In this document: positions 13,501 through 28,800 of the stretch, piece by piece | Layout: each line of letters opens with the position of its first letter | Position numbering within the stretch: the first letter of the stretch is position 1 | From: an uncultured Verrucomicrobiota bacterium | GTDB taxonomy: Bacteria; Verrucomicrobiota; Verrucomicrobiia; Verrucomicrobiales; Akkermansiaceae | Length of the DNA stretch: 36,600 nt | Assembly (NCBI GenBank): GCA_937867415.1 | Contig: CALMKO010000312.1 | Coordinates: 1 to 36,600, forward strand | Direction: 5' to 3' | Notes under the pieces: model-generated | What the model was told of the DNA's origin: nothing | What the model saw: the letters and a program-made list of their open reading frames with translations, nothing else | The model's database searches: none | Translations under genes and position numbers: made by a program

Positions 13501-15535
13501 CGGTGGGGGCGGCCTGCCAAGAGAGGGAAACAGCGGTGTTAGGTGCGCGGACAGCGAGGCCAAGGGGCGGGGGTGGAACAGAGGCGACGGCGGGCGGAAA
13601 CAGGCGCTCGCGCGGGATGATTTGTTTGGCGAGGGTGGGAGTGGCCCAGGAAAGGGCGATGCGGCCGCCGCCGGTGGAGACGGAGCTGAAGTATTCCAAG
13701 CGGACCGTAGCGGGTTGGCCAGCCGTAAGGCCAATGGTAGCAGAGGACTCAGCGAGGACACCGGTAGTCCAGCGGTCGAGGATCAGCTGGTCGTTCACCC
13801 AGAGGCGGACGCCATCGGCGGCATTTACGAAGAACGTGTGGGGGGCAGTGGAGGAAGGGAGAACGCTGCCTTCCCAGCGGGCGCTGAAGTTGTCGGGACC
13901 GAGCGAATCGGCCGGAGACTCGGCGGGAAAGGTGAAATCCTGGGTGATCGGGGGAACGGCGTCCGGGTCGATGACGATGGGTTCGGTACGGCGGGCGCGC
14001 CAGGTGAAGTCGATGGTGGGATCGGTGCGGCGCTCGGAGGTGCCAGTGAGGTCGGCGTTGTCGAAATAGGTGGCGGCGAGACCGGAGCCGCCGGTGGCGT
14101 CGCGCCAGAGGAAGCTCACAAGGGACTGGGCCGGGATGGGGTATTCGATACGGCGACCGGAGTCCTCGACGGTGATGGTCCGGGTGCCGCCGCTGTCGTT
14201 CGCCGCGACAAGGACCTTTGACCCGTCGGGATTTTGGTAGGCTGCGTAGAGAATGTTACCGGTGAAGACGCGGGTGATGGGATCGCGAGGATTATTGGTG
14301 CCTATGCGGACTGCGCCCTTGCGGATGAATTTACTGAAGTGGCCGGTTTCGTAGTATTCGCCGTAGAGTTCGTAGTCTTTGCCGTCGGGGGAAATGCGGA
14401 CGAAAGGACGGTCGCCGGCCAGGGAATCGAGGCGGCGATCGAGCATCCAGACGGCGTTGGTGCGGGCGTTGTTGAGGGAAGGGACGATGAAGATATTGCG
14501 GGCGTGCCACATCATGGAGCCGCCGAAGCCGCGGTTGGGAAGCAGGCCGGTCTGCTCGGTGAAGTAAACCGCCTTGTCGGGGTGGACGTCGGTGAACTGA
14601 TAGATATCGGAAGTGGTGCCAGCGTAGGCGTGGAAAGCGGCGCCATGGATCCAGTTTCTGGCGATGGGATCGTCGAGCACAGCGATGGGATAGGCGAGGT
14701 TGTCGCAGTTGTGATCCCAAGCGAGAATGCGGGCGGAAAAGCCGGCCTGGTCGAGGGCGGGACCGAGGGCTTTGGCGAAGTCAATCTGGTCAGCGGCATC
14801 CATGCGCATGCCCTGATACCAGTATGGCTCGTGCTGGGGCTCGTTTTGCATGGAGACGAGCGAGACTCCTAGGCCGCGGGCGTTCCATTCCTGGAGCCAT
14901 TTGACGAAGTAATTGGCGTAGGTTCCGTAATATTCAGGGCGGAGTTTGCCGTAGCCGAGGTTGCCGGAGGTTTTCATCCAGGCAGGGGCGGACCACGGGG
15001 TGCCCAGGATGGTAACCTCGGGGTTGAGCTCCTTGGCGCGCTGGGCCAGAGGAATCTTCATCTCAAGGTCGCCAGCGATGGAGAATTGGGAGAGGCTTGG
15101 GTCAGTTTGACCGGCGGGGAGGTCGTTATAGGTGCGGTCGGGGCCGACCAGACCAGTCTCCCCCATGGGAACGCGCAGAAGGTTCAGACCGATGCCGCTG
15201 GAGCGGGAGAAGAGGCGGCGCATGATCTCGTCGCGAACAGCGGGGTCTGCCTCGGTCCAGAGAGCGGGCATGCGGAGAGAAGCTCCGAAGCCCTCGATGG
15301 GTTGAAAGCGTTGGGACTCGTTGACGACGGCGTTATCAGCACGGGCAGCGGTGGTACTGCTCCAGGCAAGGTCGGCCTGGCGTTCGAGAAGCTTGGTGGC
15401 GTCGCCGGTGGTGACCCAGACCTGAACCGGCCCGGAGATCGCCGGAGTGACGGCAGGCTCGGGATCGAGGGCCCAAGTCGCGCTTCCGAGTGCGGACGCG
15501 AGGAAGAGCAACGGAAAGAGCTGAAAAAGGCGCAT
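7598..15535 (-). CDS. Giant secreted GH30 glycosidase with PA14, Fn3, ConA-like and PATR repeat modules
   Basis: A 2645-residue exported protein. Residues 1-22 form a signal peptide. Residues 35-475 are a glycoside hydrolase family 30 catalytic domain (glucosylceramidase / endo-beta-1,6-glucanase clan), with the acid/base Glu232 in MQNEP and the nucleophile Glu327 in YFTEQTG. Both are present, so it should be active. Residues 485-640 form a PA14 domain. Six fibronectin type III modules (about 652-740, 932-1020, 1211-1300, 1491-1575, 1583-1668, 1675-1758) alternate at first with three concanavalin-like modules (746-930, 1025-1210, 1302-1488). Residues 1765-2500 are autotransporter-associated beta-strand (PATR) repeats. 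Residues 2504-2645 begin with a calcium-type DPDADGLANLLEF motif common in verrucomicrobial secreted proteins. There is no C-terminal autotransporter barrel and no PEP-CTERM signal, so the export and anchoring route is open. Substrate is inferred to be a beta-glucan-like glycan. Confidence 0.93.
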   Translation of the reverse strand: MRLFQLFPLLFLASALGSATWALDPEPAVTPAISGPVQVWVTTGDATKLLERQADLAWSSTTAARADNAVVNESQRFQPIEGFGASLRMPALWTEADPAVRDEIMRRLFSRSSGIGLNLLRVPMGETGLVGPDRTYNDLPAGQTDPSLSQFSIAGDLEMKIPLAQRAKELNPEVTILGTPWSAPAWMKTSGNLGYGKLRPEYYGTYANYFVKWLQEWNARGLGVSLVSMQNEPQHEPYWYQGMRMDAADQIDFAKALGPALDQAGFSARILAWDHNCDNLAYPIAVLDDPIARNWIHGAAFHAYAGTTSDIYQFTDVHPDKAVYFTEQTGLLPNRGFGGSMMWHARNIFIVPSLNNARTNAVWMLDRRLDSLAGDRPFVRISPDGKDYELYGEYYETGHFSKFIRKGAVRIGTNNPRDPITRVFTGNILYAAYQNPDGSKVLVAANDSGGTRTITVEDSGRRIEYPIPAQSLVSFLWRDATGGSGLAATYFDNADLTGTSERRTDPTIDFTWRARRTEPIVIDPDAVPPITQDFTFPAESPADSLGPDNFSARWEGSVLPSSTAPHTFFVNAADGVRLWVNDQLILDRWTTGVLAESSATIGLTAGQPATVRLEYFSSVSTGGGRIALSWATPTLAKQIIPRERLFPPAVASVPPPPLGLAVRAPNTAVSLSWQAAPTAATYTVKRATSASGPFSALASSLTGTSYTDSTTTAGTAYFYTVSATNAQGVSADSLVREITPRGATLPAPWQQQDIGNTGVTGIGGAAGSDGVISLAGAGADIWNTADAFRFAHVPVTGDAILTVRVISQERTHEWAKSGLMFRESLNANSRHIHALLTPQNGVAFHHRAATSGVTAGTNTSGPFAPHWLRLVRSGNTFTGFSSLDGVTWTQIAASVTLDLPATLFAGLSVGSTVQGTLGVTRFDSVSIPGLPAPLPPAPAGLALTPGNASVGLVWQPTPYATSYRIFRSTSLSGPFVQIGVSTSPAYSDQNAANGTTYHYQIRGVSSAGQGSASATGSATPSSNFLPFGWINADIGSVGFPGSASWNAGTYTVQASGSTIWGTSDGFNYSYTPVNGDGTMTIRADSLVNTDTFAAKSGLMFRASSAANSAYAIIALTPGGGVKFEYRSATGGNAASQGAVSGTAPRWLRLTKIGNSLTAFTSADGISWAAVGTALTLDLGSEFLAGIAVTANNNTTSTTAVLSNFSSTGFRSPLSPATFTASPGLGGITLSWSAVSGATGYRLRRSLDGGSSFAILATLSSTSFLDTGAPNRTAALYTVTALNPDGESPPAGPVSVTASYFPLPSGWTHSDIGTTGLAGYADHSTGTFTPAGAGSSLAGMSDSFSFTRVSLSGAGEISARVATVGTASSTAKVGVMLRESTAANSRFAYVGLSPNGAVEFCVRTSNGGTVAVVATATGQSLPRYVRLTRGGSRNRTFIAFHSADGVTWTQIGSPQTFSSNTAFLAGLAVCSMNNTVLHPASFDNVKVTGYTSVATPSGLSSTSTPTSIHLTWTASGTGSFYRIRRSTSSSGPFIYIGETTNTEFTDATVVNGTAYYYTVTAAGSFNESAPTSVLSSAPTLVAPVAPANLTAEAGNATVSLSWAAVANAASYRVKRATTSGGPYATLASGLAGTSYTDVSAANDTTYFYVVTAENAAGEGLPSSEISATPVAPGTTPPSGLTARADNKSVVLSWNALFGSVSYSVKRATASGGPYTTLATGITATTFTDTTAVFGSPYFYVVSGVNALSAASPDSAPATATATTSTWSGPDLASWSDASAWTGAAPFSGGSFTFLFNAATARSGSQDLADLTASAITFESTAAAHTFFGSSPVTLTGNLSVASAAAQTLAFPLTLNGPRTVDVATGGSLILSGGLLNGSSAAGLIKTGAGSLILSGSAALAAPSRLVLNSASTVTLRHPAALGASDGGISIANGINTALAFETDSPVNRYNFGGGSTPATTTLSVGRLTSGPGFTQPFGIFEIGSRSLTVNTGPNIASGTMGASFTELRLTAGNNDRPVLLNGSAAYTVGSVARFSNFGANTTRRLQLDGTSAFNTVGPISNGSADATTTLSLIKANTSTWSLTGNTTHTGPTSIEGGTLRLGNGGTTGTLSLASALTFLNGATLGFNRSDTVTQGVHFPTLLSGPGRLAQSGPGTVVLNSSNLLAPTTGDVLTFTAGGTVALAHPAALGASGSWVRFSASGGGVLALRTDTSANSLNLTSGSTHGGTLFLDRATSGPGFTHTLGLLDLGSVNFTFNPGPNLTDSAATASFTEVRLTGGNDNQPVTLVANTGVQIASASITANALPKRLRLDGAATNSTLGTITNGLSTVSLLKAGPGRWTLTGPASHTGLTTVSAGELCILGDATHATGAVSVGDGNADNGSATLSGTGTLGGAVTTVSDGVIAPGSGGLGTLAFASSATLGGSLRLEIDGSSSDRLAVTGALATSAATLELQSLSGGVTAASYTLATFGSLSGAASFASVTGLPAGYAVLFDLSGQRILLARLTPSFGDWAGSAGLTGDSALPTADPDADGLANLLEFTFGSSPSGSQPSGLVPQVSSSVPASLVFSFPRTHNARDAGVVLVVEAGATLGSWPITLSVGVDTASSAAGVVVTPRDSASDLVTVTLPMEAGSARLFARLRASLPAP
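8462..9823 (-). repeat. Internal tandem duplication in the PATR region of the GH30 protein
   Basis: Residues about 1905-2100 and 2170-2358 of the giant protein are two copies of one unit about 190 residues long, offset by 259-267 residues. Shared landmarks in the same order are HPAALGAS (1916 and 2183), TSGPGFT (1967 and 2233), an ASFTE-RLT-GN block, and a SLxKA...LTG...HTG block (2070 and 2329). The last block is the typical PATR signature. The duplication must predate much divergence, since only the landmarks remain close. Confidence 0.8.
10256..13582 (-). repeat. Fn3 / concanavalin-like module array in the GH30 protein
   Basis: Six fibronectin type III modules and three modules beginning LPxxWxxxDIG (residues 746, 1025, 1302) make up residues 652-1760. 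The order is Fn3-ConA-Fn3-ConA-Fn3-ConA-Fn3-Fn3-Fn3. The first and last Fn3 copies share a VKRAT-SGP(F/Y)-LA--LTGTSYTD signature (residues 684, 1612, 1703), suggesting recent duplication. The ConA-like copies each contain a KSGLMFR-type motif and a D-G-(V/I)-(T/S)-W motif, as in DUF1349-like carbohydrate-recognition domains. Confidence 0.8.
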
Positions 15536-17830: not shown

Positions 17831-17986
17831 GGAAGCGGAACTCCCGCAGCGAGGAAAATCATCCGCCGCAGAAAGAAATGAGCGCCACCACGGTCGAGAC
17901 GCTTGTGAAGCGGCTTGAAAAATGGCTGAAGTTTGGTTGGTTCTCAGGCGCAGCATCCTGACGATCAAGACAACCTAACCAAACCC

Positions 17987-20806
17987 ATGCACGCCCGCTC
18001 TGTCATCCTGTGTTTTTTTGCCTCGCTTTTTCTGTTAGCTCCGAATGTATCCCTTGCCGCGCCGCAGGTGCTGGTGGATGCTGCGACTGGGCAAACCAAA
18101 GGATTTGATCCGCCGCCCGCGGTTTCCGAGGAGCAGGGAGCCAAGGTTTGGCGCGGCCCCAGCGAGTGGAAAATTCCGGCTCGCGATGGCATTTTTACCA
18201 TCAGCTTCGGTTTTCTCGGCTACGAGTCCACAAAGCAGGAGGACCTCATCGTGCTGCTGTCGGGAGCGCCCGCTCCGGTGGCGATCGTGCGGAATGTGAA
18301 TTCCTCAGCGCGCTTGAAATCGACCGGACGCCATCTGATTTCCGGGCCGGACGGGCGCTATCGCAAGAATCGCTGGCATGAGGTGAAGATGGTCTATCAC
18401 TCGGCAAAAGGGACGCTCGAAGTGATCTGCGACGGTAGCGTGAAAATGGAAGAAGCAGTGACCAAGATGGGCACGCGCTTCGCCGGGCTGAGCTTCTCGA
18501 AAGCGGCGGCTTTGAGCGGATTGCGCATCACCCGGGAACCGCTGCCTGAGCCCTCGCCGGAGGAAACTCGACTGCAAGCACGCCGTGCCGAGCTGGCAGC
18601 GAAGATCGAGGCCCTGCCTGCGGGGAGTCCGGAAGCGAGCCGTCAGCGCGCGGTGCTGAGATATCATCTTACTCAGCTCGACCAGGCCTTGTTGCAGGAT
18701 GCCATCGCGGTGGGCGAGGACATCGCCACGGACATCGCGGTGGGGCTGGAGCGTCCGATGGGCAGGATGGTTGCCGGCCAGGTCTGGCAGCGGCCAGTCG
18801 CCCAGCCCTCTAACAACCCCTGGCTGGCAGAGAAATTTCTCAACGACTGGTTGCGCGACTGGAGCGCCAAGAGCGACCATGACTGGAAAGTCTCCACCCC
18901 GGAAACGCAAGTTTATGAGGGCATTCACGGGGGGCGCGGCACCCGTGACCAGGGTCAGGCGGCCAACCAATGGATGCTGCTGTATTCCCACCCCGCCAGC
19001 CCCTTGCGCGATCGTGAGGAACTGCTGATCCGCGCCCTCCGCCGCATCGATGCCTACCTGCGCGACTATCATTTCCATCAGACCCTTGAGGAAAACAGCC
19101 ATCTTAATGACTTCTTCGCCTTCGGCCCGGCCTTGATGGGAGCGGTCATGATCCAGAAAACCTATCCGGATCTCCTGCTCCCCCAACAAACCGCCATCTG
19201 GCAGGCCGCCGCCGAGAAGGCTGCCAAGCGCTACCACCTCATGAAGGGCAACGGCAACTACTCGAATGCCGACCTCGCCCACGCGCGCATCTTCATCGCC
19301 TCCGCGCTTTTCACCGGCAACCGCGCGGATCTCGCCCACGGCCTCAAACTGGCGCTCTCGTGGAATGATAACATTTTCCCCGATGGCGCGAGCTCTTACA
19401 TCGCGAAACAAAACGAAAGCCCGGGCTACCACGGCCCCTGCATCGACATCCAGATCGACAACTGGGTGATGACGAATGATCCCGCCTTGCTCGAAACGAT
19501 TCGTCGCACGGAATGGTATCCGCTCAGTGTGAATGACGGTAACCGCATCGGGGAGTGGTTCACCGTGCCCTCCTGGAAACAATCTTGGTATGGCCCCAAG
19601 GGATTTTCCGGCCATGCCGCCGTCTGGTATCTTACGGCAAACCCCTGGTATGCGGCACTGGGCGAGCCGGATCGATTCGATCGCGTGACTGAACCGTCGA
19701 TAAAGCTCGCGATGCTATACCGGAAACACGCCGCCACGCCGCGCGCCTTGCCCGGGAGATTCGCGTTTTATGATCGCAATATCCTCGGCGCCCGCATGTC
19801 TAACGGGCGCTGGTCCACCGCTATGAACGGCCGCATCACCGATCAACTCGTCGGCAAGAACACCTACGTCGGGCTGACCCTCGCGGAGGCCGATGGAAAT
19901 CCCGACCCAGCGCTGAACGCCGCGCTCTATGGCATCATGCTTTACCCGGTAAGTCCCGGGCAGGGCACCAACACGCCCACCGAGGAATCGATCGGCGTGG
20001 CGATGGGAAATCAGGTTTCCGCCCTGGGCGCGCATTACCAACTCGCCCGGCGAATGCCGGGACCGAGCCGCCGCCCCCTGCCTTGGCGCGGCCGCCAATG
20101 CTGGCTCATGCTGCCCGACCGCATGATCGGCTTTCTCGAGGTCACCCCGGAAAAGCAAGCCGCCGCACACGGCGTCAGCTTGCACCTTGAGCTGGGTCGC
20201 GCGAAGGCCGGATCCCGCCGCAATGAGGGCATCCGGAAGCTGTCGGACCGCCTGCACGGCTACGGCGACCTGCGGGTGCGGATTCTCGAAACAAGTCTCG
20301 GCCCGGTGCTCACCCGCGATGCTCCCGATGGTCTCGCTGCGGATGGCGTGCGCGGTCCGCATGCCGAATACCACCTCGTCGATGCCGCCAGCGCCAAAGG
20401 CTGGAGTGCCAAGCCCACGATCCGCAGCAATAGCGAATACGCATTGGTTGAAATGTCTATGAGTGGCAGCCCGGACGCATCAAGCATCAGCCATATCAAA
20501 GAGGGGGCGCTCATTGGCATTTGCGCTAGCTTACCCGGATCTAACATGATCACTTTATATAACTCCGGAAAATCCGCACTACCGATTCCCACCGCACGTT
20601 TTCAACTCAAGGGGCGGACATCGTTGATTGGAAACCGCCCGGACTTCAGGATCACCAGCCCGGTTCCTGCGGAATTTTCCCTGCCTGCCGGAGAATCCGT
20701 GATCCTGGTGGCGGGCGGGGATGAGCACTTGCATCGGCCACCGGTCATCGGCGTGCAGCAGATGCTGGAATCCAAGGAACGCCCCGTTTCCAAAATCACC
20801 GAATGA
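17987..20806 (+). CDS. Large secreted protein, putative polysaccharide lyase-like enzyme
   Basis: A 939-residue exported protein. The ATG at 17987 gives a clear signal peptide (residues 1-24, ending SLA-AP); an upstream TTG at 17933 would bury it. Residues 50-185 look like a concanavalin/LamG-type beta-sandwich, 190-240 like a charged coiled linker, 270-560 like an alpha/alpha toroid and 600-939 like a beta-sheet-rich domain, the layout of several polysaccharide lyase families. Aromatic and polar motifs such as NYSNADLAHA (424-433) and NESPGYHG (476-483) are candidate active-site segments. I could not assign a CAZy family, and lyase activity is inference from layout. The gene meets the heme/SUMF gene tail to tail with an 11-bp overlap of coding ends. 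A long hairpin separates it from the PEP-CTERM gene upstream. Confidence 0.85.
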   Translation: MHARSVILCFFASLFLLAPNVSLAAPQVLVDAATGQTKGFDPPPAVSEEQGAKVWRGPSEWKIPARDGIFTISFGFLGYESTKQEDLIVLLSGAPAPVAIVRNVNSSARLKSTGRHLISGPDGRYRKNRWHEVKMVYHSAKGTLEVICDGSVKMEEAVTKMGTRFAGLSFSKAAALSGLRITREPLPEPSPEETRLQARRAELAAKIEALPAGSPEASRQRAVLRYHLTQLDQALLQDAIAVGEDIATDIAVGLERPMGRMVAGQVWQRPVAQPSNNPWLAEKFLNDWLRDWSAKSDHDWKVSTPETQVYEGIHGGRGTRDQGQAANQWMLLYSHPASPLRDREELLIRALRRIDAYLRDYHFHQTLEENSHLNDFFAFGPALMGAVMIQKTYPDLLLPQQTAIWQAAAEKAAKRYHLMKGNGNYSNADLAHARIFIASALFTGNRADLAHGLKLALSWNDNIFPDGASSYIAKQNESPGYHGPCIDIQIDNWVMTNDPALLETIRRTEWYPLSVNDGNRIGEWFTVPSWKQSWYGPKGFSGHAAVWYLTANPWYAALGEPDRFDRVTEPSIKLAMLYRKHAATPRALPGRFAFYDRNILGARMSNGRWSTAMNGRITDQLVGKNTYVGLTLAEADGNPDPALNAALYGIMLYPVSPGQGTNTPTEESIGVAMGNQVSALGAHYQLARRMPGPSRRPLPWRGRQCWLMLPDRMIGFLEVTPEKQAAAHGVSLHLELGRAKAGSRRNEGIRKLSDRLHGYGDLRVRILETSLGPVLTRDAPDGLAADGVRGPHAEYHLVDAASAKGWSAKPTIRSNSEYALVEMSMSGSPDASSISHIKEGALIGICASLPGSNMITLYNSGKSALPIPTARFQLKGRTSLIGNRPDFRITSPVPAEFSLPAGESVILVAGGDEHLHRPPVIGVQQMLESKERPVSKITE

Positions 20807-20816
20807 CATCGGTGAT
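20795..20816. terminator. Perfect hairpin spanning overlapping convergent stop codons
   Basis: ATCACCGA (20795-20802) and TCGGTGAT (20809-20816) are a perfect 8-bp inverted repeat with a six-base loop. The plus-strand stop TGA (20804-20806) is in the loop; the minus-strand stop (20796-20798) is in the stem. On the minus strand a short T-run follows, as in an intrinsic terminator. It probably ends both transcripts. Confidence 0.65.
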
Positions 20817-23800
20817 GACGATGCGGAAACCGACGTCGAAGACCCGTTGGTGCGCTTGGTAGTGGACGCGGGCGTTCACGGTGGCGAGGTGGGGACGGAC
20901 ACGCCACGAGCCGCCACGCGCGACGCGCAGGCCGTCTGAGGTGCTGTCGGCGGTCCATTCCCAGGCGTTGCCGATCATGTCGTGCAGGCCCCAGGCATTG
21001 GGCTGGTATTTGCCGACGGCGGTGGTGACGAATCCACCGTCGTCGAAGCGGTTGTCGCGCGGGATCCAATCGTCGTATCGGTTCGGGTTCTCGATGGGTT
21101 TCGCGGCATGGTAGTTTTCTTGTGCGGTGCAAGCGGCGAACTCACGGAGGCGTTGATCGCCGAGGTTGGCGTGCGGCGAGTAGTCGGCATCGGCCTGGCC
21201 GAAGGGAAAGGCAGTGGTGGTGCCGGCGCGGCAGGCCCATTCCCACTGGATGCCAGCAGGCAGGGCGGCGGAGGTCTTGTGGGTTTCGCCCAGCCAACGG
21301 GCGAAGGCGCTGGCATCATTCCAGGAAATGCGCACGGCCGGTTGTGTATCGCCATTCATATCATATCCGCGGCGTCCGAATTGATAGCCGTGGCGTGACT
21401 CGTCGCGGCTGTCGTGCGCGGTCTTGAAGCGGCGGAACTGGGCGTTGGTGACCTCCGTTTTGGCAATCCAGAACGACGGGACATCCGTACCATTGATACG
21501 TCCGGCAGGCACTTGGATGAAATCCATGGCGACGCCCCCGCCGAGGTCGATGGAGCGCGACTGGGTGCGGGCGTCCTTGATTTCGATCACCACGGGTTTT
21601 TCCTGCGCCGCCGCTAGCGGTCGGGCGCTCACGGGTGTGGTATCGTAGGTGGGAAGCGGCGGGATTTTTTCATAATCCGACATCGGAACGGCAGGCGCGT
21701 AGCGTTCGCGCAATTCCCGCGCGCGGCTGAGTTGGGAGGTGACCTTTGCCTCGCCCACAACCTCGCTCCAGGTGCCGTGGAAAGGGGCGTTGATGTCGGC
21801 CCAGGTGACGATGCGCTCGAACGATTCGCGGTCGAGTTTCACCCCGTGGTGGCCCTCGCGCAGCATGCGCCCGAGGTCGGTGGTGCTGAAGTGGTAATCC
21901 ATCGGGCTGAGCACGCGCATGTCGCTCTCGATGCCGGGCCGCCGGATATAGCGGTGGAGCTCGGCATAGGAGGCCGTGAATTGGCCGCCGTAATCTCCGG
22001 CGTTGCCGGAAATTCGCGAGGCCCAGTCGGTGATCCGGCGGTCGCCCTTGAGGTAAGGTTCGGCGTGGCCTTCTTCGCCGGAGTGGCATGGGGTGCAATG
22101 GCGGTCGAGCACGGGCTGCACTTCGCGGGCGAAGTTGAAGCCCCTCACCGGTGCGAGCCAGGTCGCCTCGATGTCGGCGGGCGGCAGCAGCGCCGCACGC
22201 GCTGCGGCGGAGGGCGGAGCCTCGTTCATGCCCGCATGGCAGCCGACGCAGGAAACGCGCTCGCCCGGCATGCCGGTGAACCAACTCCGCATGGTCTGCA
22301 GCGCCTGGCCCTCGGAATCGAGCGGCTGCACCATCACCGGCGTGTTGGCGGGGATGATAAAATGGGCCGAGCCGTCTTCTTCCACGGGCACGGTGCCCAA
22401 CACGCGCCGGATGTCCCAAGGGCCGTCCATGCCCAAGGCTCCGATCATGCCGCCCATGCCGCGCGGGCTGAAGTAATACTCGACGACGCGCAGTTTTTTC
22501 ACCGTGCCGCGCGGAATGCCTGCGAGGCCGGGACCCTGATAGATATCCGTTAGCAACACGGAAGCATCCGGCTTGGCGGCATCGATGCGGGCGGGGATGA
22601 CGGGGGCCTGCAGACGGGCGGTGAGGGCGATGGGCTCGAACAACGAGTTTCCGGCGGACTCATGGATGAGCGTAATATTGTCGAACACATCCACCAGATA
22701 GATGCCCCAGAGGGAATCCGGGCCGGGCTTGCAGGAAACGAGGACGTGTTTTTCATCGAGCGGCCATGGCATGAGAAACTGCGGCCAGACGTCCTTGACG
22801 AGCTGATCCTTGACGATGGCTTCCACCTTGCGCCCGCGATGCGGAAACTCATGCACCACGCCATCAGCTTCGTAGCGGCTGATGGCGGGGTCGAGCATCA
22901 GCAAGCGTCCTGCGCGCGCCACGCCATGGTGACCGCCAGCGATGCCGATGATCTTCGAGGCATGGCCGGGCACGGGGCGGGCATAGAAAAAGGAATTGGG
23001 GAAATACGAATTGCTTCCATATAACTCGGATTGATTGGTGCCGTCCGGATTCATCTGGAACAGGATGCGTGAGTTCGAGTGCGGCAGGTCGGTGTATTCC
23101 CAACGTTGATACATGACACGCCCGTCGGGGAGGATGGTCGGGTTCCAGTTGTGTTCCTGATCAAAGGTAAGGCGGCGGATGGTACCAGTGGCGGATTGGA
23201 AGTGATGGAGATTGCCGATCTGGGAATTTCCACCGACGCAAGGGACGCCGATGTAGGTGGCGGTGGAGTTGAAAATGATGTTGCCGTCGGGCAGGTAACA
23301 GGCGTCGTAGTTGTCCACGTCCGGCTCATCGATGAGCGGGAGCGCCACGGGCACGGTGCCGTCCAGGGCCATTTCAAAAATTTGCCAGCGGTTGCTCTTG
23401 CCGACCATCGAGAAAAGCAGGCGTCCGGCATCCGGGTGGAGCTCGATGTCGGTGATGAGTTTGCGGGATTCCGGCTGATAGATGCTATCGAGCACGGGCT
23501 GGCTGCGGAGCTTGCTGAGGACAGCGATGCGGTTACTCAACTCCCCGCGGGTGAGCTTGGAGTTGCCATCCCAGTTTTGCGGCAGGGCAGGCACGCCCGC
23601 TTCGCGCTCGATCAGGAGAATGCGGTCGAAATCGAGCAAGGGATGAGCCAGCAGCGCCTCGCGACGTAAGGCAGCTAGGGCATCAGCCGAGGGCGCGGGG
23701 CCAAGGGCATCGAGGCGCTTGAGATACTCCGCGCCCTGCGGGTAGCGATCCCCGAATGATTTTTTGAGATCGGAAATCGCCACGCGCAGGGTGGACGCGC

Positions 23801-23876
23801 TGCCGGAACCGGCAGGTGCCGCCGCGAGGGGTGCTGCTAGAAATGCGAGGACCGTGAGCCAGGTGGGAAGTTTCAT
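20796..23876 (-). CDS. Secreted heme-binding PD40/HZS-alpha-like protein fused to a SUMF/FGE-type domain
   Basis: A 1026-residue exported protein with a signal peptide (residues 1-20). Residues about 130-430 contain PD40/TolB-type propeller motifs such as DIELHPDAGRLLFSM and WNPTILPDGRVMYQRW. The middle region resembles the hydrazine synthase alpha-subunit middle domain found in many Planctomycetes and Verrucomicrobia proteins. Two c-type heme motifs follow, CVGCH (543-547) and CTPCH (594-598). Residues 775-1022 form a formylglycine-generating-enzyme/SUMF1 fold (WEWACRAGT, GNAWEW, RGGSW, GFR). The paired catalytic cysteines of true FGE are absent after RGGSW, so sulfatase activation is unlikely; ligand binding or structural use is inferred. 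Its ATG overlaps the stop of the aldo/keto reductase gene by 4 bp, making it the last gene of a four-gene operon. The anammox reaction is not implied. Confidence 0.88.
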   Translation of the reverse strand: MKLPTWLTVLAFLAAPLAAAPAGSGSASTLRVAISDLKKSFGDRYPQGAEYLKRLDALGPAPSADALAALRREALLAHPLLDFDRILLIEREAGVPALPQNWDGNSKLTRGELSNRIAVLSKLRSQPVLDSIYQPESRKLITDIELHPDAGRLLFSMVGKSNRWQIFEMALDGTVPVALPLIDEPDVDNYDACYLPDGNIIFNSTATYIGVPCVGGNSQIGNLHHFQSATGTIRRLTFDQEHNWNPTILPDGRVMYQRWEYTDLPHSNSRILFQMNPDGTNQSELYGSNSYFPNSFFYARPVPGHASKIIGIAGGHHGVARAGRLLMLDPAISRYEADGVVHEFPHRGRKVEAIVKDQLVKDVWPQFLMPWPLDEKHVLVSCKPGPDSLWGIYLVDVFDNITLIHESAGNSLFEPIALTARLQAPVIPARIDAAKPDASVLLTDIYQGPGLAGIPRGTVKKLRVVEYYFSPRGMGGMIGALGMDGPWDIRRVLGTVPVEEDGSAHFIIPANTPVMVQPLDSEGQALQTMRSWFTGMPGERVSCVGCHAGMNEAPPSAAARAALLPPADIEATWLAPVRGFNFAREVQPVLDRHCTPCHSGEEGHAEPYLKGDRRITDWASRISGNAGDYGGQFTASYAELHRYIRRPGIESDMRVLSPMDYHFSTTDLGRMLREGHHGVKLDRESFERIVTWADINAPFHGTWSEVVGEAKVTSQLSRARELRERYAPAVPMSDYEKIPPLPTYDTTPVSARPLAAAQEKPVVIEIKDARTQSRSIDLGGGVAMDFIQVPAGRINGTDVPSFWIAKTEVTNAQFRRFKTAHDSRDESRHGYQFGRRGYDMNGDTQPAVRISWNDASAFARWLGETHKTSAALPAGIQWEWACRAGTTTAFPFGQADADYSPHANLGDQRLREFAACTAQENYHAAKPIENPNRYDDWIPRDNRFDDGGFVTTAVGKYQPNAWGLHDMIGNAWEWTADSTSDGLRVARGGSWRVRPHLATVNARVHYQAHQRVFDVGFRIVITDVIR

Positions 23877-24886
23877 GTCGGCTGGGTTGCGGGTTCGCCC
23901 ATGGCCGCGAGATCGCGCGACATGCGCGCAATCTCAGCCGCGGGGATTTCCAGATCGGCGGCGGCGGCGGTCTCGCGGATGTGGTGGAGCTTGCGCGCCC
24001 CGGCGAGCACGTGGGTGACGCCGGGCTGCGCCAGTGTCCATGCGAGGACGAGTTGCGCAAGCGAGCAGCCGTGGGTCTCACACAGCGGATGCCAACCTGC
24101 TAGAACATCCAGCACGCGGCGGCGGTTCACCGGCAGCAGCCATGGGAACCAATCGGCGCTGGTGCGGAACTCGCCCTCCTTGAACTGGTGGTCCATGCCG
24201 ATTTTTCCGGTGAGAAGCCCTTGCTCGAGCGACATGTAGGTGAGCGTGGCGATGTTGCGGGCGCGGCACATCGGCAGCATGGCGGCTTCCGGACCGCGCG
24301 AGAGCATCGAGTAGCGGAACTGATGGCTGGCGATCTCCCCGCACGATAGATAGGTTTCCAGCTCTGCGGGCGACAGGTTGCACACACCGATGGCGCGGAT
24401 TTTTCCTTGGTCCCGCAGCTTCAGCAGGGCGGCCATGGTGTCTTCGATCGGCGTCTTGTCCGGCTCCACGGCGGGCCAGTGAATCTGATAGAGATCAATG
24501 CGGTCGGTGGCGAGATCGCTGAGCGAGCGCTCGATCTCGATGGCGATGGTATCCGGGCGCAGCGAGCGGTAGATGCTCTTGCCGTTGAACTCGGTGAAAT
24601 AGGAGCCGCGCGTGTCGTCCCACCACAGGCCGCACTTGGTGGCAAGCAGGACGGTGTCGCGCCGCCCCGCGATGGCTTTGGCGATGAGCCGCTCGCTATG
24701 ACCCCAACCGTAGGCGGGCGCGGTATCCAGTAGGTTGATGCCGGCATCAAGCGCGGCCTGGATGGTGGCGATGGACTCGGAGTCATCGGAGGCGTCGCCC
24801 CAGACGGCACCGCCGCCGATGGCCCATGCGCCGAAGCCGATGACTGAGGATGAGAGGCTGGAGTTTCCTAAGGGGAGGTATTTCAT
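23873..24886 (-). CDS. Aldo/keto reductase
   Basis: A 337-residue NAD(P)H-dependent oxidoreductase of the aldo/keto reductase superfamily (TIM barrel), of typical length. The catalytic tetrad is visible: Asp54 and Tyr59 in LLDTAPAYG, Lys84 in ATKCG, His136 in QIHWP. The C-terminal GARKLHHIRE segment fits the cofactor-binding GA(R/S)xxxQ(L/I)xE motif, with His in place of Gln. No signal peptide is present, so it is cytoplasmic. It sits between the di-heme protein gene (21 bp upstream) and the heme/SUMF gene (ATGA overlap downstream), so translation is probably coupled. A role in reducing or oxidising a sugar-derived carbonyl is suggested by the neighbours. An Ala/Glu-rich tail follows the domain. 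Confidence 0.93.
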   Translation of the reverse strand: MKYLPLGNSSLSSSVIGFGAWAIGGGAVWGDASDDSESIATIQAALDAGINLLDTAPAYGWGHSERLIAKAIAGRRDTVLLATKCGLWWDDTRGSYFTEFNGKSIYRSLRPDTIAIEIERSLSDLATDRIDLYQIHWPAVEPDKTPIEDTMAALLKLRDQGKIRAIGVCNLSPAELETYLSCGEIASHQFRYSMLSRGPEAAMLPMCRARNIATLTYMSLEQGLLTGKIGMDHQFKEGEFRTSADWFPWLLPVNRRRVLDVLAGWHPLCETHGCSLAQLVLAWTLAQPGVTHVLAGARKLHHIRETAAAADLEIPAAEIARMSRDLAAMGEPATQPT

Positions 24887-24907
24887 GATGATATAGTCGA
24901 TGTGATG

Positions 24908-26725
24908 TTAGAGTGAAAGCAGGTATTCGATGAGGTCTTCGATTTCAACAGGTTTGAGAGCACTGAGATCGCCGTGGTCGTCGTCGGGGTTGTGATGGAT
25001 CAGCACGTCGCGCAGCGTGGCGGCGCGGCCGTCGTGGAGATACGGCGGGGTGCGCCAGAGCTCGACCAAGGTGGGCACGTCGTATTGTGTTTTGCCACGG
25101 TCCAGCGGTGTGGCGGTGCCCACGTCCTTGAGCCCGAGGTTGGTATAGAGCGGCGCAGGGTGGCACTGGGCGCAGCCGACCGACTTGCGGTGGAAGATTT
25201 TTTCACCCCGCTCGGCTGCCGCCGAAAACGAGCCGTCCGGCAGACGATACGGGCTGACCACCGGCTGCAGCGAGCTTAGATAGGCGCTGACCGCCTCGGC
25301 TTCGCCGGGCTCCGGCTGGGTGAATTGGATGTGGACGAAGCCCGCGCGCACGGCGGTTTCCATGCTGTCGCGCACGCCGAGAGACATCACGGGCGGAGTG
25401 GCATGGCTGAGCAGCATCGATCGCGCGTTCTTCGGGTTGCCGACGCCGTCGTTGAGCAGGTCCCAGTTCAGGCCGTCGGCGCGGGCGTCGGCGTGGCAGG
25501 TGGCGCAGCTCAACCAACGTTGGTAACAACGGCCGGCATCGTGGAAGGAAATTTCCCCACGCCGCACGGGATCGGGTGCGGACTGCGGACCGAGAGGAAG
25601 GAAGACGGGATTCGCGGCGTCGCCATCTAACAAAACCACTCCTCCGGAGAAATATCCGGCTGCGGCGATCCTACGCCCATCGGCGGAAACAGCAATACCG
25701 CGCGGGCCTTGGACGGGAAGGTCCACACGACGCAGGATTCCCCCGCGATGCAAGGCCGAGAGATCGTTGGTAAAGGCATCCGGGTCCGAACCAAGCATGG
25801 CGGTGAGTTTCCTGCGGTCGAGGACGGCAAGTTGATGAACTCCGGAAAGGGTGATGAACAAGTGATCACCCTGCGGATCAATGGCGATCCCCCACGGATC
25901 GGCCGCGCCGTCCATGATCTGGTCGAGCAACACGGTGGCGCTGCGCGTGGCGGATGTTAGATCGATGATGGAAAGGGCGTTGGTATTCACCCAGCCACGG
26001 TCGAGCTGGGTGGTCGGTAGGTGGAAGCGCCCCAGCGTGTGGACGACGTAAGCGGTGCGCCCCGTGGCATCGATGGCGATGCCGCGTGCGTTGGTCGATC
26101 CGGTGGGCAGCCGCACGGATGCGCTGACGGCCATTTTTGTTAGATCGACGAGGGTGACTTCGGTGGCATGATCCGGCGCGGTGGCAGCAGTGGCGGGGAT
26201 GAGGTTGCTGACGGCGGCAAGTAGCCCATCCGCGCTGACCGAGACACGCATCGGCTGCCGCCCGACAGGGATGTGCGCGAGGGTCTTGCCGGTGGCGGAA
26301 TCGAGGATGGCGAGTCGGTCGAGGCCGCGATCACAAACGAGCAGGAGCCCGGCTTTTCTAACAAATTGCAGTCCGCTCGGATAGCGGCCGGTGGGAAATT
26401 GACGCGTGATTCTTCCGCTGGCGGCATCGATCTCAGCGACGCTGCCGGCACCGGTTTGCGAGGCGAAGATGCGTTTTCCGTCACCAGACCAAGCCAGGCC
26501 TTCGGGTTTACCGGCGAGCGGGATCCTGGCGGTGATTTCCCGCGTTTCCGGATCCATGAGAGTAAGGCCCGGGGTGGTCGCGTCGCCCACGGCGAGCACA
26601 GAGTCATTCGGCGAAAAAGCGACTACCAACGGGGAGTGGATGACCGCTGAAAATGCGGGCGGACCAGCCATCACGCACCATGCTGCGAACATGAATGAAC
26701 GGAGCAACAGTGTCTCGATGGGCAT
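24908..26725 (-). CDS. Secreted YVTN beta-propeller / di-heme cytochrome c peroxidase-like protein
   Basis: A 605-residue exported protein. The ATG at 26725 is chosen over a GTG one codon upstream because a GAGGTG ribosome binding site (26731-26736) lies five bases from it, one of the few clear ones here. After a signal peptide, residues 30-370 form a seven-bladed-type propeller of YVTN/lactonase repeats (for example VVAFSPNDSVLAVGD and SVSADGLLAAVSN). Residues 390-605 form a MauG/cytochrome c peroxidase-like domain with two heme motifs, CATCH (407-411) and CAQCH (518-522), and a conserved YLHDGRAATLRDVLIHH segment. It would act in the periplasm as an electron-transfer or peroxidase-like partner. 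It is the second gene of the operon, 49 bp after the RidA-like gene. Confidence 0.9.
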   Translation of the reverse strand: MPIETLLLRSFMFAAWCVMAGPPAFSAVIHSPLVVAFSPNDSVLAVGDATTPGLTLMDPETREITARIPLAGKPEGLAWSGDGKRIFASQTGAGSVAEIDAASGRITRQFPTGRYPSGLQFVRKAGLLLVCDRGLDRLAILDSATGKTLAHIPVGRQPMRVSVSADGLLAAVSNLIPATAATAPDHATEVTLVDLTKMAVSASVRLPTGSTNARGIAIDATGRTAYVVHTLGRFHLPTTQLDRGWVNTNALSIIDLTSATRSATVLLDQIMDGAADPWGIAIDPQGDHLFITLSGVHQLAVLDRRKLTAMLGSDPDAFTNDLSALHRGGILRRVDLPVQGPRGIAVSADGRRIAAAGYFSGGVVLLDGDAANPVFLPLGPQSAPDPVRRGEISFHDAGRCYQRWLSCATCHADARADGLNWDLLNDGVGNPKNARSMLLSHATPPVMSLGVRDSMETAVRAGFVHIQFTQPEPGEAEAVSAYLSSLQPVVSPYRLPDGSFSAAAERGEKIFHRKSVGCAQCHPAPLYTNLGLKDVGTATPLDRGKTQYDVPTLVELWRTPPYLHDGRAATLRDVLIHHNPDDDHGDLSALKPVEIEDLIEYLLSL

Positions 26726-26730
26726 CACAA

Positions 26731-26736
26731 CACCTC
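26731..26736 (-). promoter_or_regulatory. Ribosome binding site deciding the di-heme gene start
   Basis: GAGGTG on the minus strand lies five bases before the ATG at 26725 and only two before the alternative GTG. It is notable because most genes in the window lack any such sequence. Confidence 0.6.
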
Positions 26737-26774
26737 AGGATACCGCAAGAAATGCGGAGTCCTTTCAGCGCGTT

Positions 26775-27971
26775 TCAAAAATCCGGAAAATCGGACCGAT
26801 CCGCGGAAACGCAGGCGATTCCTTCGATTTCAATCAGCCAGCCCGGTCGGCAAACCGGGGCGTGAAGGACGATCATGGGCAGGGATTCGAAACGCTGGCG
26901 GAGCGCGTGTCCGATCATCGCGCCATCGGCGGGATCGCGCAGATAGACGAGTATCATGGTGAGATCACAAAGCCCCGCATCTGCGGAAGCGAGCAGGGCC
27001 TCGATGTTTTGAAGGGTGCGGTCCAGTTGCCGCATGACATCACCCGGGTGTACGATTTCACCAGCCGGATCGATGCTGGCGGTGCCGGAAAGGAAGATAT
27101 GGGTGCGGTCCGAGTAGGTGACCGATGTGGCCCGCTCGAAGGTCACCCCATACAGGTGGGTGGGACCGAGGTGCTCCGGCGCACTGAGATGCGCCATCTG
27201 CCCCGGGACCAATCCGCGGATGGAATAGGAATCCAGTGACAGCCGCACCGCCTGCCGGTGATGACTGCCGGCGATCCCGGTGCTGGCGATGTAACGCGTT
27301 TCCTCTGTTAGGCCATGGTGATCAAAAACCTCGCGACGGGCATCGACGAGCCCTTGGTAGTCCAAGTCGATGTCGCGGACATACCACCAAGTGCGGATCA
27401 CATGGTCTTCGAGAGTCATGCCTCCTTCTGCCAGGCGCCGGTTGTGTTCATCCAACACGGCGTGGGTTTGCGAAGCCGAGTCGCCCTTGCCGGCGTCGTG
27501 CAGGCCGGACATCCATACATGCCGGAGCGCGCCGCGGCTGATGGCGAAACAAGTGCCGTCCCCCCTTCCTGCCAGGGGTTCCGTGTCCTCAGCCAGATGA
27601 TACGACCACAGCGCAAAACGGCCACCTGCCAATGGCGTCTGGCCGATGGCGGAAAAGCCGCCGGGATAAGCTCGGGAAAACGAGTCCAATTTCGAAAACT
27701 GATTGACCACATCGCTGCAAAAGACGCGGCGCATCACCGTGCTTTCCGGGCGGATCCCGGCATCGCCCAGAGAGGCAAGCCAGCGTTTTTCCAGCGCCTC
27801 GACCGTGTCTTCACCCGCTATCGTGACATGCCACTCGCCCGCCCCGGTGGCGCGGGCGAAATGGGAAACCCGCACTGGGGATGAGCCATCACCGAGCCAT
27901 GCGACGTCAGGGGCCGCCTCGTGCGGTGTGATGCATCGCTTGGATTCCCTCCGCTGCAAGGTGTGGGTCAT
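26775..27971 (-). CDS. Tandem RidA-like (YjgF/YER057c/UK114) protein
   Basis: A 398-residue cytoplasmic protein, about three times the usual RidA length of 130. The C-terminal part (about 270-390) is a clear Rid domain: an IFLSGTASID strand, a PGDVMRQLDRTLQNIEALL helix, and the ending APVCRPGWLIEIEGIA. The Cys and Arg before PGWL match the RidA active-site region. The N-terminal 260 residues contain a weaker, likely related half, including VWMSGLHDAG and the helix THAVLDEHNRRLAEGG. RidA proteins hydrolyse reactive enamine/imine intermediates; whether this double form does so is not known. It opens the four-gene operon. About 270 bp without a gene lie upstream. No Shine-Dalgarno sequence is evident. 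Confidence 0.82.
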   Translation of the reverse strand: MTHTLQRRESKRCITPHEAAPDVAWLGDGSSPVRVSHFARATGAGEWHVTIAGEDTVEALEKRWLASLGDAGIRPESTVMRRVFCSDVVNQFSKLDSFSRAYPGGFSAIGQTPLAGGRFALWSYHLAEDTEPLAGRGDGTCFAISRGALRHVWMSGLHDAGKGDSASQTHAVLDEHNRRLAEGGMTLEDHVIRTWWYVRDIDLDYQGLVDARREVFDHHGLTEETRYIASTGIAGSHHRQAVRLSLDSYSIRGLVPGQMAHLSAPEHLGPTHLYGVTFERATSVTYSDRTHIFLSGTASIDPAGEIVHPGDVMRQLDRTLQNIEALLASADAGLCDLTMILVYLRDPADGAMIGHALRQRFESLPMIVLHAPVCRPGWLIEIEGIACVSADRSDFPDF

Positions 27972-28239: not shown

Positions 28240-28800
28240 TTACTCCGGCTGCTGCGCCTTCAAGCGGGTTTCGAGTTCGGCCCATTGACTGCGGCTCACA
28301 ATATATCCCACGCAACTGGATTTTCCACACAAACAACGATGATCCTCGTAACAGTCAACGTCGAAACCATAATCGAAGGTCAGCTCCTCACCCGCCTGGA
28401 TTTCGACCAATGAATGAATGAAAATCTTCCGCCCCACAATCCATGCCTCACAGTTCGGCTCACAGGAATGATTGATCAAGCGCGCCGTATTCCATGGCAC
28501 GTTACCGTCGATGTCGTATTTCTTGGAAAGTGTGAAAATATAGACGGCCGCATCGCCGGATTTGATTGACTTCGCGTGTTGGGATACCCCCCTTCTCTGA
28601 CTCTCGTGCTTGTCGACAAGTTCACCGACGTATTCGATGATTTGCGTCCCTGGAGGGATTAGACAGGTGGCATAGACACCCCGTCCGTGGATGTCGGAAC
28701 CACGCACCTCGCAATACGGACTTTGCCCCCGGTTCCAAAGCTTGATGAGCTTGCGATGCAACAGCTTCTGATCCATTTCCAATTTTTTCTTCGATGCCAT
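28240..28800 (-). CDS. SET-domain protein (putative lysine methyltransferase)
   Basis: A 186-residue protein with a complete SET fold. Residues 39-45 GRGVYA and 110-117 NHSCEPNC supply the S-adenosylmethionine and pseudoknot motifs, FDYGF (142-146) holds the catalytic-site Tyr144, and a post-SET cysteine cluster (Cys156, 158 and 163, with Cys117) would bind zinc. All key residues are present, so methyltransferase activity on a protein lysine is likely; the substrate is unknown. The N-terminus is basic and cytoplasmic. It lies 14 bp after the secreted protein gene, and its AGGTGA ribosome binding site (28811-28816) overlaps that gene's stop codon, suggesting translational coupling. Bacterial SET proteins occur sporadically and are often thought to be acquired from eukaryotes. 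Composition here is slightly lower in GC than in the neighbours. Confidence 0.92.
   Translation of the reverse strand: MASKKKLEMDQKLLHRKLIKLWNRGQSPYCEVRGSDIHGRGVYATCLIPPGTQIIEYVGELVDKHESQRRGVSQHAKSIKSGDAAVYIFTLSKKYDIDGNVPWNTARLINHSCEPNCEAWIVGRKIFIHSLVEIQAGEELTFDYGFDVDCYEDHRCLCGKSSCVGYIVSRSQWAELETRLKAQQPE

Follow-up and report, generated by a model that had tools for sequence, protein, structure and literature searches.

The closest described relatives of the gene unit reported here are the hydrazine synthase (HZS) of anammox bacteria and HZS-like proteins encoded elsewhere. Hagglund et al. 2025 (PMC12758564) described co-located α and fused β-γ homologues outside the anammox bacteria that lack the HZS key residues, with Opitutus terrae (Verrucomicrobiota) among the hosts. 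Of the clades distinguished there, I to III lie near FG-GAP/CRTAC1 genes, clade III also near ABC genes, and clade IV near neither. Phycisphaerae and KSB1 were also reported to have hzs-like genes, with the proposal that these form a broad family acting on other substrates (PMC10732223). Among the top fold hits to the α subunit, Hagglund et al. reported none of experimentally confirmed function, and our literature search found no function-assigned member of the HZS superfamily from outside the anammox bacteria. Here, we describe a four-gene unit in a 36,600-nucleotide stretch of DNA from an uncultured Verrucomicrobiota bacterium of the Akkermansiaceae (GCA_937867415.1, CALMKO010000312.1, positions 1-36,600; the whole stretch is referred to as the window). 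The HZS-like family itself is already known; what is new is the type of operon, in which HZS-like proteins are paired with a chorismatase.

A conserved unit encoding two heme proteins homologous to hydrazine synthase subunits

The four genes, here named chor, BC, AKR and HZA in reading order, all lie on the minus strand and have the following features:

26775-27971, minus strand: chor, chorismatase-like protein (FkbO/Hyg5 family), 398 amino acids, first gene of the unit (TIGR04444, 60.3 bits)
26829-26852, minus strand: C374-R375...E381 of chor, the Hyg5-type Cys, Arg and catalytic Glu of the active site (150 of 150 aligned rows)
24908-26728, minus strand: BC, HZS β-γ-like fusion, exported, 606 amino acids, GTG start (5c2v_B, 100.9 bits; 5c2v_C, 95.9 bits)
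25493-25507, minus strand: heme γ-I-like CxxCH of BC, C408-H412 (aligned to the CASCH of HZS γ)
25160-25174, minus strand: heme γ-II-like CxxCH of BC, C519-H523 (aligned to HZS γ)
23873-24886, minus strand: AKR, YdjG-like aldo/keto reductase, 337 amino acids, no signal-like N-terminus (PF00248, 220.8 bits)
20796-23876, minus strand: HZA, HZS α-like protein with a C-terminal FGE-like domain, exported, 1026 amino acids (PF18582, 110.7 bits, cut-off 26.6)
22236-22508, minus strand: HZS_alpha middle domain of HZA, ending in the heme α-I-like CxxCH (Pfam and profile alignment)
22236-22250, minus strand: heme α-I-like CxxCH of HZA, C543-H547 (profile alignment to HZS α)
22083-22097, minus strand: heme α-II-like CxxCH of HZA, C594-H598 (profile alignment to HZS α)
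20817-21488, minus strand: FGE/SUMF-like domain of HZA, residues 797-1020, PvdO-like by sequence (PF03781, 117.7 bits; best solved match PvdO 5hha)

The gap between chor and BC is 49 bp with the ATG at the second codon of BC and 46 bp with its GTG start; BC and AKR are 21 bp apart, and AKR and HZA overlap by 4 bp. Both heme proteins carry two CxxCH motifs and an N-terminal hydrophobic, signal-like segment (judged by eye, without a predictor), which is absent from chor and AKR. The initial annotation, made from the sequence alone, had described a four-gene same-strand arrangement with this spacing and overlap and with two CxxCH motifs plus a signal peptide in two products, all of which we find in the sequence, the signal-like segments by eye. 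Of its interpretation, one part is supported: two exported c-type heme proteins and two enzymes without a signal-like N-terminus are joined in a conserved unit. The homology of both heme proteins to HZS subunits had been missed.

HZA is a homologue of the HZS α subunit with a C-terminal FGE-like domain. A profile of 20 relatives (A3) matched 5c2v_A, the α subunit of HZS, with 117 bits in five pieces that cover both heme motifs. For the AlphaFold2 model of HZA (mean predicted local distance difference test [pLDDT] score 73, predicted template modeling [pTM] score 0.68; FGE-like end largely poorly predicted), 5c2v_A ranked first by Foldseek as well as by VIA-align, in the latter with a Z score of 31.8 and a root mean square deviation of 2.9 over 558 residues, compared to a Z score of 25.7 for the runner-up TolB. 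The catalytic Cys pair of FGE would be expected after an RGGSW motif; neither in the HZA of the window nor in the 10 further rows of A3 that have the FGE part is this motif followed by a Cys. We note that the number of HZS_alpha matches per genome ranges from 24 to at least 44 in five congeners (G054, G057, G019, G029, and G026; G and L numbers designate genomes and loci, respectively), while the window's genome has one; the family is strongly expanded in these congeners.

BC is a homologue of HZS β and γ in fused form, with a propeller at residues ~32-368 and a di-heme domain at ~386-605, and its two best solved relatives are HZS β (5c2v_B) and HZS γ (5c2v_C). Both CxxCH motifs are invariant in all 20 rows of the BC alignment (A2), and a conserved propeller loop (the PTTQLDRGWVNTNAL region) aligns with the loop region of HZS β. 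In the model of BC (pLDDT 80, pTM 0.83; heme domain weaker), 5c2v_B came first in both fold searches (VIA-align Z score 45.1 for the propeller, next 35.7). The fold search backs the propeller half only, and the assignment of the di-heme half is a prediction from sequence alignment. BC-like proteins also occur in frames of ~1,400 amino acids, in which the propeller is preceded by a long extension at the N-terminus (L104:6086-10480, L106:2110-6321, and L113:8081-12289).

Next, we considered residues with described roles in HZS (PMC12758564 and PMC12607021), including α-Tyr591, the proximal ligand of heme α-I. The position of this Tyr, four residues after His587, is taken by Asn551 (H547+4) in HZA, with no Tyr among the next several residues. 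In BC, γ-His144 is replaced by Ser and γ-Cys165 by Val, as determined from a single pairwise alignment with a manual residue count. The profile alignment places α-His772, the distal ligand of heme α-II, at H677, the second His of a GHH motif; because H676 is better conserved than H677, this register is possibly off by one. The region of the zinc ligand α-Cys303 lies outside the alignment of HZA with 5c2v_A, and the absence of this Cys is reported for Scalinduaceae (PMC12758564). The NCBIfam scores reached 6-22% of the cut-offs (α, 44.4 of 800; β, 122 of 560; γ, 90.3 of 625; β-γ fusion model NF052342, 163.9 of 1250). Together, the alignments indicate that the four-heme layout is kept and that the diagnostic residues tested are not. 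Because the equivalents of Tyr591, γ-His144, and γ-Cys165 are not kept, we did not classify the unit as an HZS. PF13447, the model for multiheme proteins of the HAO/HDH family, matched in none of eight genomes, its positive control being likewise silent everywhere. Five of 20 BC relatives (L093, L094, L096, L098, and L099) have a Cys one residue from the γ-Cys165 position, and a third heme thioether may be possible in these five proteins but not in BC of the window.

The order chor-BC-AKR-HZA recurs exactly at L090 (G014, a congener). At L091 (G052, also a congener), AKR and HZA are separated by an additional HZA paralogue, and HZA is cut off by the end of the contig. L105 (G079, from another family of the order) has the order BC-AKR-HZA-HZA(FGE)-HZA, and because the unit starts near the contig end, the presence of chor cannot be judged there; L109 (G068) has HZA(FGE), one gene, BC and chor. 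AKR, which scored 297.7 bits against NF049922 (cut-off 550), is 81-83% identical at L090/L091 and 63% at L105. Moreover, 13 genomes of a sister genus in the same family (g21) contain an HZA(FGE)-BC-chor trio, with the FGE part in 13/13; at L222, ~1 kb separates HZA and BC. The initial annotation had named a lack of conserved gene order in relatives as a refutation; the order is kept in relatives, and the proposal withstands this check in part. Compared pairwise with both unit-bearing congeners, all four genes had dN/dS values of ~0.16-0.33 (ratios from dN and dS). These values and the recurrence of the order at L090 and L091 support that the unit represents more than chance. The 13 trio genomes are near complete and belong to a small-genome genus, so cultured hosts may exist.

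On a broader scale, a search at 1e-20 detected BC in 23 of 99 relatives, and a profile search at 1e-60 across 387 genomes of the phylum detected it in 75. Chor was detected in 79 of 387; we took the two 387-genome samples to be the same set, as handles agree where listed. Both were present in 39 of the 387 genomes (Fisher 3e-12, relatedness not removed), close together in 28 of these and on other contigs or far apart in 11. Among the 23 g21 genomes listed in both searches, 13 have both genes, one has chor only (G288), none has BC only and nine have neither (Fisher 1e-5, relatedness ignored).

The chorismatase-like protein and its partner sets

The initial annotation had described chor as a tandem RidA-like protein. 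A RidA domain is indeed present, but it is a single Pfam domain (PF01042, 60.7 bits, residues 290-387), and the protein resembles FkbO/Hyg5 chorismatases. A profile of 15 relatives (A1) matched Hyg5 (5ag3) with 61 bits and FkbO (4bps) with 50.9 bits. The catalytic Glu of chorismatases and the Gly and Cys residues of the CH-II type have been named (PMC7170507). By alignment, E381, C374, and G296 of chor correspond to Glu334, Cys327, and Gly240 of Hyg5, while FkbO has Ala at the Cys and Gly positions; the equivalence of Cys327/Gly240 with Cys318/Gly231 of Nat-Hyg5 was assigned by a manual residue count. Gly296, Cys374, Arg375, Glu381, and Arg280 are invariant in 150/150 aligned rows. A further Gly, G232 (149/150), is at the presumed position of Nat-Hyg5 Gly164, but it does not discriminate CH-II enzymes because FkbO has the same TGI there. 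From these residues, chor is a relative of Hyg5-type chorismatases and probably converts chorismate into hydroxybenzoate. We note that two Parabacteroides loci (L151:9974-13726 and L153) contain two chor-like genes located two genes apart.

The chorismate pathway begins with DAHP synthase. A gene for this enzyme is located within 100 bp of chor on the same strand at 3 of 145 chor loci (L122, L230, and L132), directly beside it with a 1-bp gap in L122:7811-9683 and a 4-bp overlap in L230:4983-6835. The proteins at L122 and L230 score above the NCBIfam cut-off; that at L132 scores below it (244 versus 267.75) and is possibly frameshifted. L134 and L160 also have DAHP synthase genes on the strand of chor, at a greater distance from it. 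Of the other matches, the one at L167 is on the opposite strand and the one at L147 is a fragment at the contig end. NCBIfam scores ruled out KDO-8-phosphate synthase as the identity of these PF00793 neighbours. The coupling, at few loci, supports chorismate as the likely substrate of chor. An FkbO-type (CH-I) reaction followed by AKR acting as a dihydrodiol dehydrogenase to yield catechol is not favored because the chor residues are Hyg5-type.

To describe the partners of chor, we used the 80 match rows from the 387 genomes and read 66 neighbourhoods, the window included. The 14 rows left out were all weak (E values 3e-25 to 8e-21), and eight of them have BC close by on the same contig (G105, G118, G151, G198, G212, G303, G340, and G352). 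Among the 65 neighbourhoods besides the window, 19 contain BC, 14 of these with HZA in the same gene run; 32 contain PSCyt2/PSD1, DUF1501 and/or PPC genes, two contain imelysin-DHOR genes and 12 have none of these partners (some being on short contigs). A second set, the best 80 of at least 583 confirmed genome_contigs loci and not a random sample, comprised 31 loci with imelysin/DHOR, 12 with the PSCyt2/PSD1 set, 12 with a 2-oxoglutarate (2OG) oxygenase or its neighbour family and 25 with none. At L114, L115, L121, L207, L210, L212, and others, chor occupies either the last or the first position in a PSCyt2/PSD1-DUF1501-PPC operon. It lies in imelysin-DHOR operons in Bacteroidota, Chromatiaceae and two g21 genomes (L134, L151, L177, L190, L159, L138, L256, and L257), and several of the loci in Bacteroidota add porins, a protein of ~240 amino acids that contains a single CxxCH motif and, at some of them, a gene for CcsA/ResB.

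A tree of 150 chor proteins, built with FastTree, required 12 changes among four partner states; the HZS-like state taken alone required at least eight. For this state, the number was nine if partnerless loci were counted, and four changes were forced by well-supported branches. Thus, the pairing of chor with HZS-like genes was formed or lost several times, which speaks for a functional connection and against common descent of the genes as a block.

A candidate two-compartment unit and alternative explanations

The reading that we tentatively favor, while holding it at less than even confidence, is a two-compartment unit in which hydroxybenzoate made by chor in the cytoplasm would serve a periplasmic, HZS-like heme complex. 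In the cytoplasm, chor would cleave chorismate into hydroxybenzoate, most likely 3-hydroxybenzoate, and pyruvate, and AKR may adjust a carbonyl on this route. In the periplasm, HZA and BC would form a four-heme complex built like HZS, with the γ-II-like heme as the predicted electron entry, the γ-I-like heme as a first open site, a propeller loop at a tunnel and the α-I-like heme as a second open site. The complex would have two potentially open hemes and, because the active-site residues differ, is not expected to make hydrazine; the exported hydroxybenzoate, or a derivative, could serve it as substrate, reductant or ligand. Heme attachment to the unit's proteins is plausible: all eight genomes tested have matches to the cytochrome c assembly family PF01578 and to ResB, the latter on another contig in the window's genome, and in G104, BC (1279683-1281503) is followed on the same strand by ResB (from 1281689) and PF01578 (from 1282591) genes.

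Several observations weigh against this reading. The unit itself encodes no aromatic-acid transporter, AKR is linked at only four loci and 36 of the 75 BC-containing genomes gave no match for chor at 1e-20. HZS-like partners were found at none of the best 80 genome_contigs loci. That heme is what the partners of chor share was ruled out, because CxxCH was present in 0/118 open reading frames for PSCyt2/PSD1 (41), DUF1501 (34), and PPC (43) proteins. The TIGR04444 score of chor is far below the cut-off of 325, and the A1 profile matched the plain Rid protein 2dyy (63 bits). Lastly, the single PF01578 match in the window's genome is weak (54 bits) and contains an internal TGA.

The chorismatase/HZS-like pairing points to an undescribed link of aromatic metabolism with this heme enzyme family. 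The family is large, with one relative having at least 44 HZS_alpha matches. Because the recurrent pairing with a chorismatase names a substrate class, the question of what HZS-like proteins do could be addressed by one enzyme assay. In addition, the presence of chor suggests a shared theme in two further gene sets that are widespread.

An alternative that we regard as unlikely is iron or metal acquisition, in which the chor product would serve as a ligand or reductant of iron, with the HZS-like complex as a periplasmic iron oxidoreductase in place of imelysin and DHOR. The imelysin-DHOR operons with chor are consistent with this idea, as are the 12 genome_contigs loci with chor close to either a 2OG-Fe(II) oxygenase or the neighbour family of this enzyme, and iron regulation of imelysin systems is known from several bacteria (PMC3143127). 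We scanned the regions upstream of 139 chor loci and of the window unit with a Fur consensus, using single-letter shuffles for comparison, and found no signal for Fur regulation of HZS-like units. The best match upstream of the window unit was 10/19, a value reached in 68% of shuffles, and P values of ≤0.05 were obtained for 1 of 18 HZS-like units, 0 of 5 units with BC alone and 3 of 31 imelysin-DHOR units. Also arguing against an iron role, the trio at L117 is flanked by genes for phosphate transport, PhoU and a U32 peptidase rather than by iron genes.

A wider and more doubtful extension of the two-compartment reading is that a chorismate-derived small molecule acts as shared mediator (redox partner, ligand or co-substrate) of the HZS-like, PSCyt2/PSD1-DUF1501-PPC and imelysin-DHOR systems, and that HZS arose from a larger family of two-site heme proteins working with aromatic acids. 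If so, bacteria from lakes to animal guts would plug a chorismatase into whichever of these systems they own, and the anammox enzyme would be the odd one out in an aromatic-acid heme family. He et al. 2017 (PMC5615132) described PSCyt-type genes as being of wholly unknown function and suggested a carbohydrate role.

RidA-type damage control, with the heme complex oxidizing amines and chor hydrolyzing reactive imines or enamines, is improbable. Chor has a RidA domain and its profile also matches Rid proteins, and the initial annotation had proposed imine or enamine detoxification. The Hyg5 set of Glu, Cys, and Gly in chor argues against this proposal, as the Cys is present in 150/150 rows, whereas 2dyy, the best Rid match (126 amino acids, one domain), has Ser at this position. 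Moreover, chor lacks a signal-like N-terminus, whereas the heme proteins are exported, and the coupling of a few relatives to DAHP synthase would not be expected of a Rid enzyme.

We consider it very unlikely that the unit acts in glycan catabolism on products of a secreted lyase-like protein encoded by its convergent neighbour, as the initial annotation had suggested. The neighbour is present, large and adjacent (17933-20806; 957 amino acids; overlapping the 3' end of HZA by 11 bp), and planctomycete-type cytochrome genes have been suggested to mirror glycoside hydrolases (He et al. 2017, PMC5615132). However, its lyase-like nature could not be verified, as it matched neither a Pfam nor an NCBIfam family and had no solved relative at E values up to 0.1, it is transcribed convergently, and L090 has a gene of the aspartokinase family in this convergent position instead, the contig of L091 ending too early. 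We rejected the glycan link because the 957-amino-acid protein has no relative at an E value of 1e-5 at the fetched loci, i.e., 169 loci (L090-L258) and 29 short loci (L061-L089), some of them limited by contig ends. Finally, a true HZS outside the anammox bacteria is extremely improbable, for although all three subunits are represented in the four-heme layout, Asn551 replaces Tyr591, Ser replaces γ-His144, γ-Cys165 is not Cys, the family scores are far below the cut-offs and Hagglund et al. 2025 (PMC12758564) concluded likewise for other non-anammox homologues.

Elsewhere in the window, this bacterial genome has a gene for a SET-domain protein (PF00856, 85 bits) on the strand of the unit and upstream of it (28240-28800, minus strand), and 7598-15535 (minus strand) is a single open frame of 2,645 amino acids.

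Comparison with known systems

Among the matches listed in our literature searches, no paper paired a chorismatase with hydrazine synthase, imelysin or DUF1501; those listed combined chorismatase with FkbO only. In these searches, no paper linking chorismatase with Akkermansia was found, and the sole match for hydrazine synthase and Akkermansia was off topic by title. Like the unit, imelysin-DHOR (EfeOB-like) operons pair a di-heme oxidoreductase with a chor gene; unlike the unit, they have imelysin and porins and not an HZS-like α protein, and iron regulation is documented for them and was not found here. Chor shares the Gly, Cys, and catalytic Glu positions and a similar length with Hyg5/CH-II chorismatases (5AG3; Nat-Hyg5). 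It differs from Hyg5 in its low overall similarity, below the NCBIfam cut-off and with alignment over the C-terminal two thirds only, and in its operon partners, which are exported redox or binding proteins rather than polyketide or peptide synthases.

The unit resembles clades I-IV of PMC12758564 in having co-located α and fused β-γ proteins without the HZS key residues, and it departs from them by its chorismatase, its AKR and its FGE fusion, none of which is mentioned in the available parts of PMC12758564 or PMC10732223. As in HzsBC of Scalindua, β and γ are fused. With anammox HzsABC (Kuenenia 5C2V), the unit shares an α fold with two CxxCH motifs, a propeller β, a di-heme γ and the neighbouring arrangement of α and β-γ. 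By the alignments made, it differs from HzsABC in lacking equivalents of Tyr591, His144, and Cys165, and it has, in addition, an FGE-like domain on α as well as the chorismatase and AKR genes.

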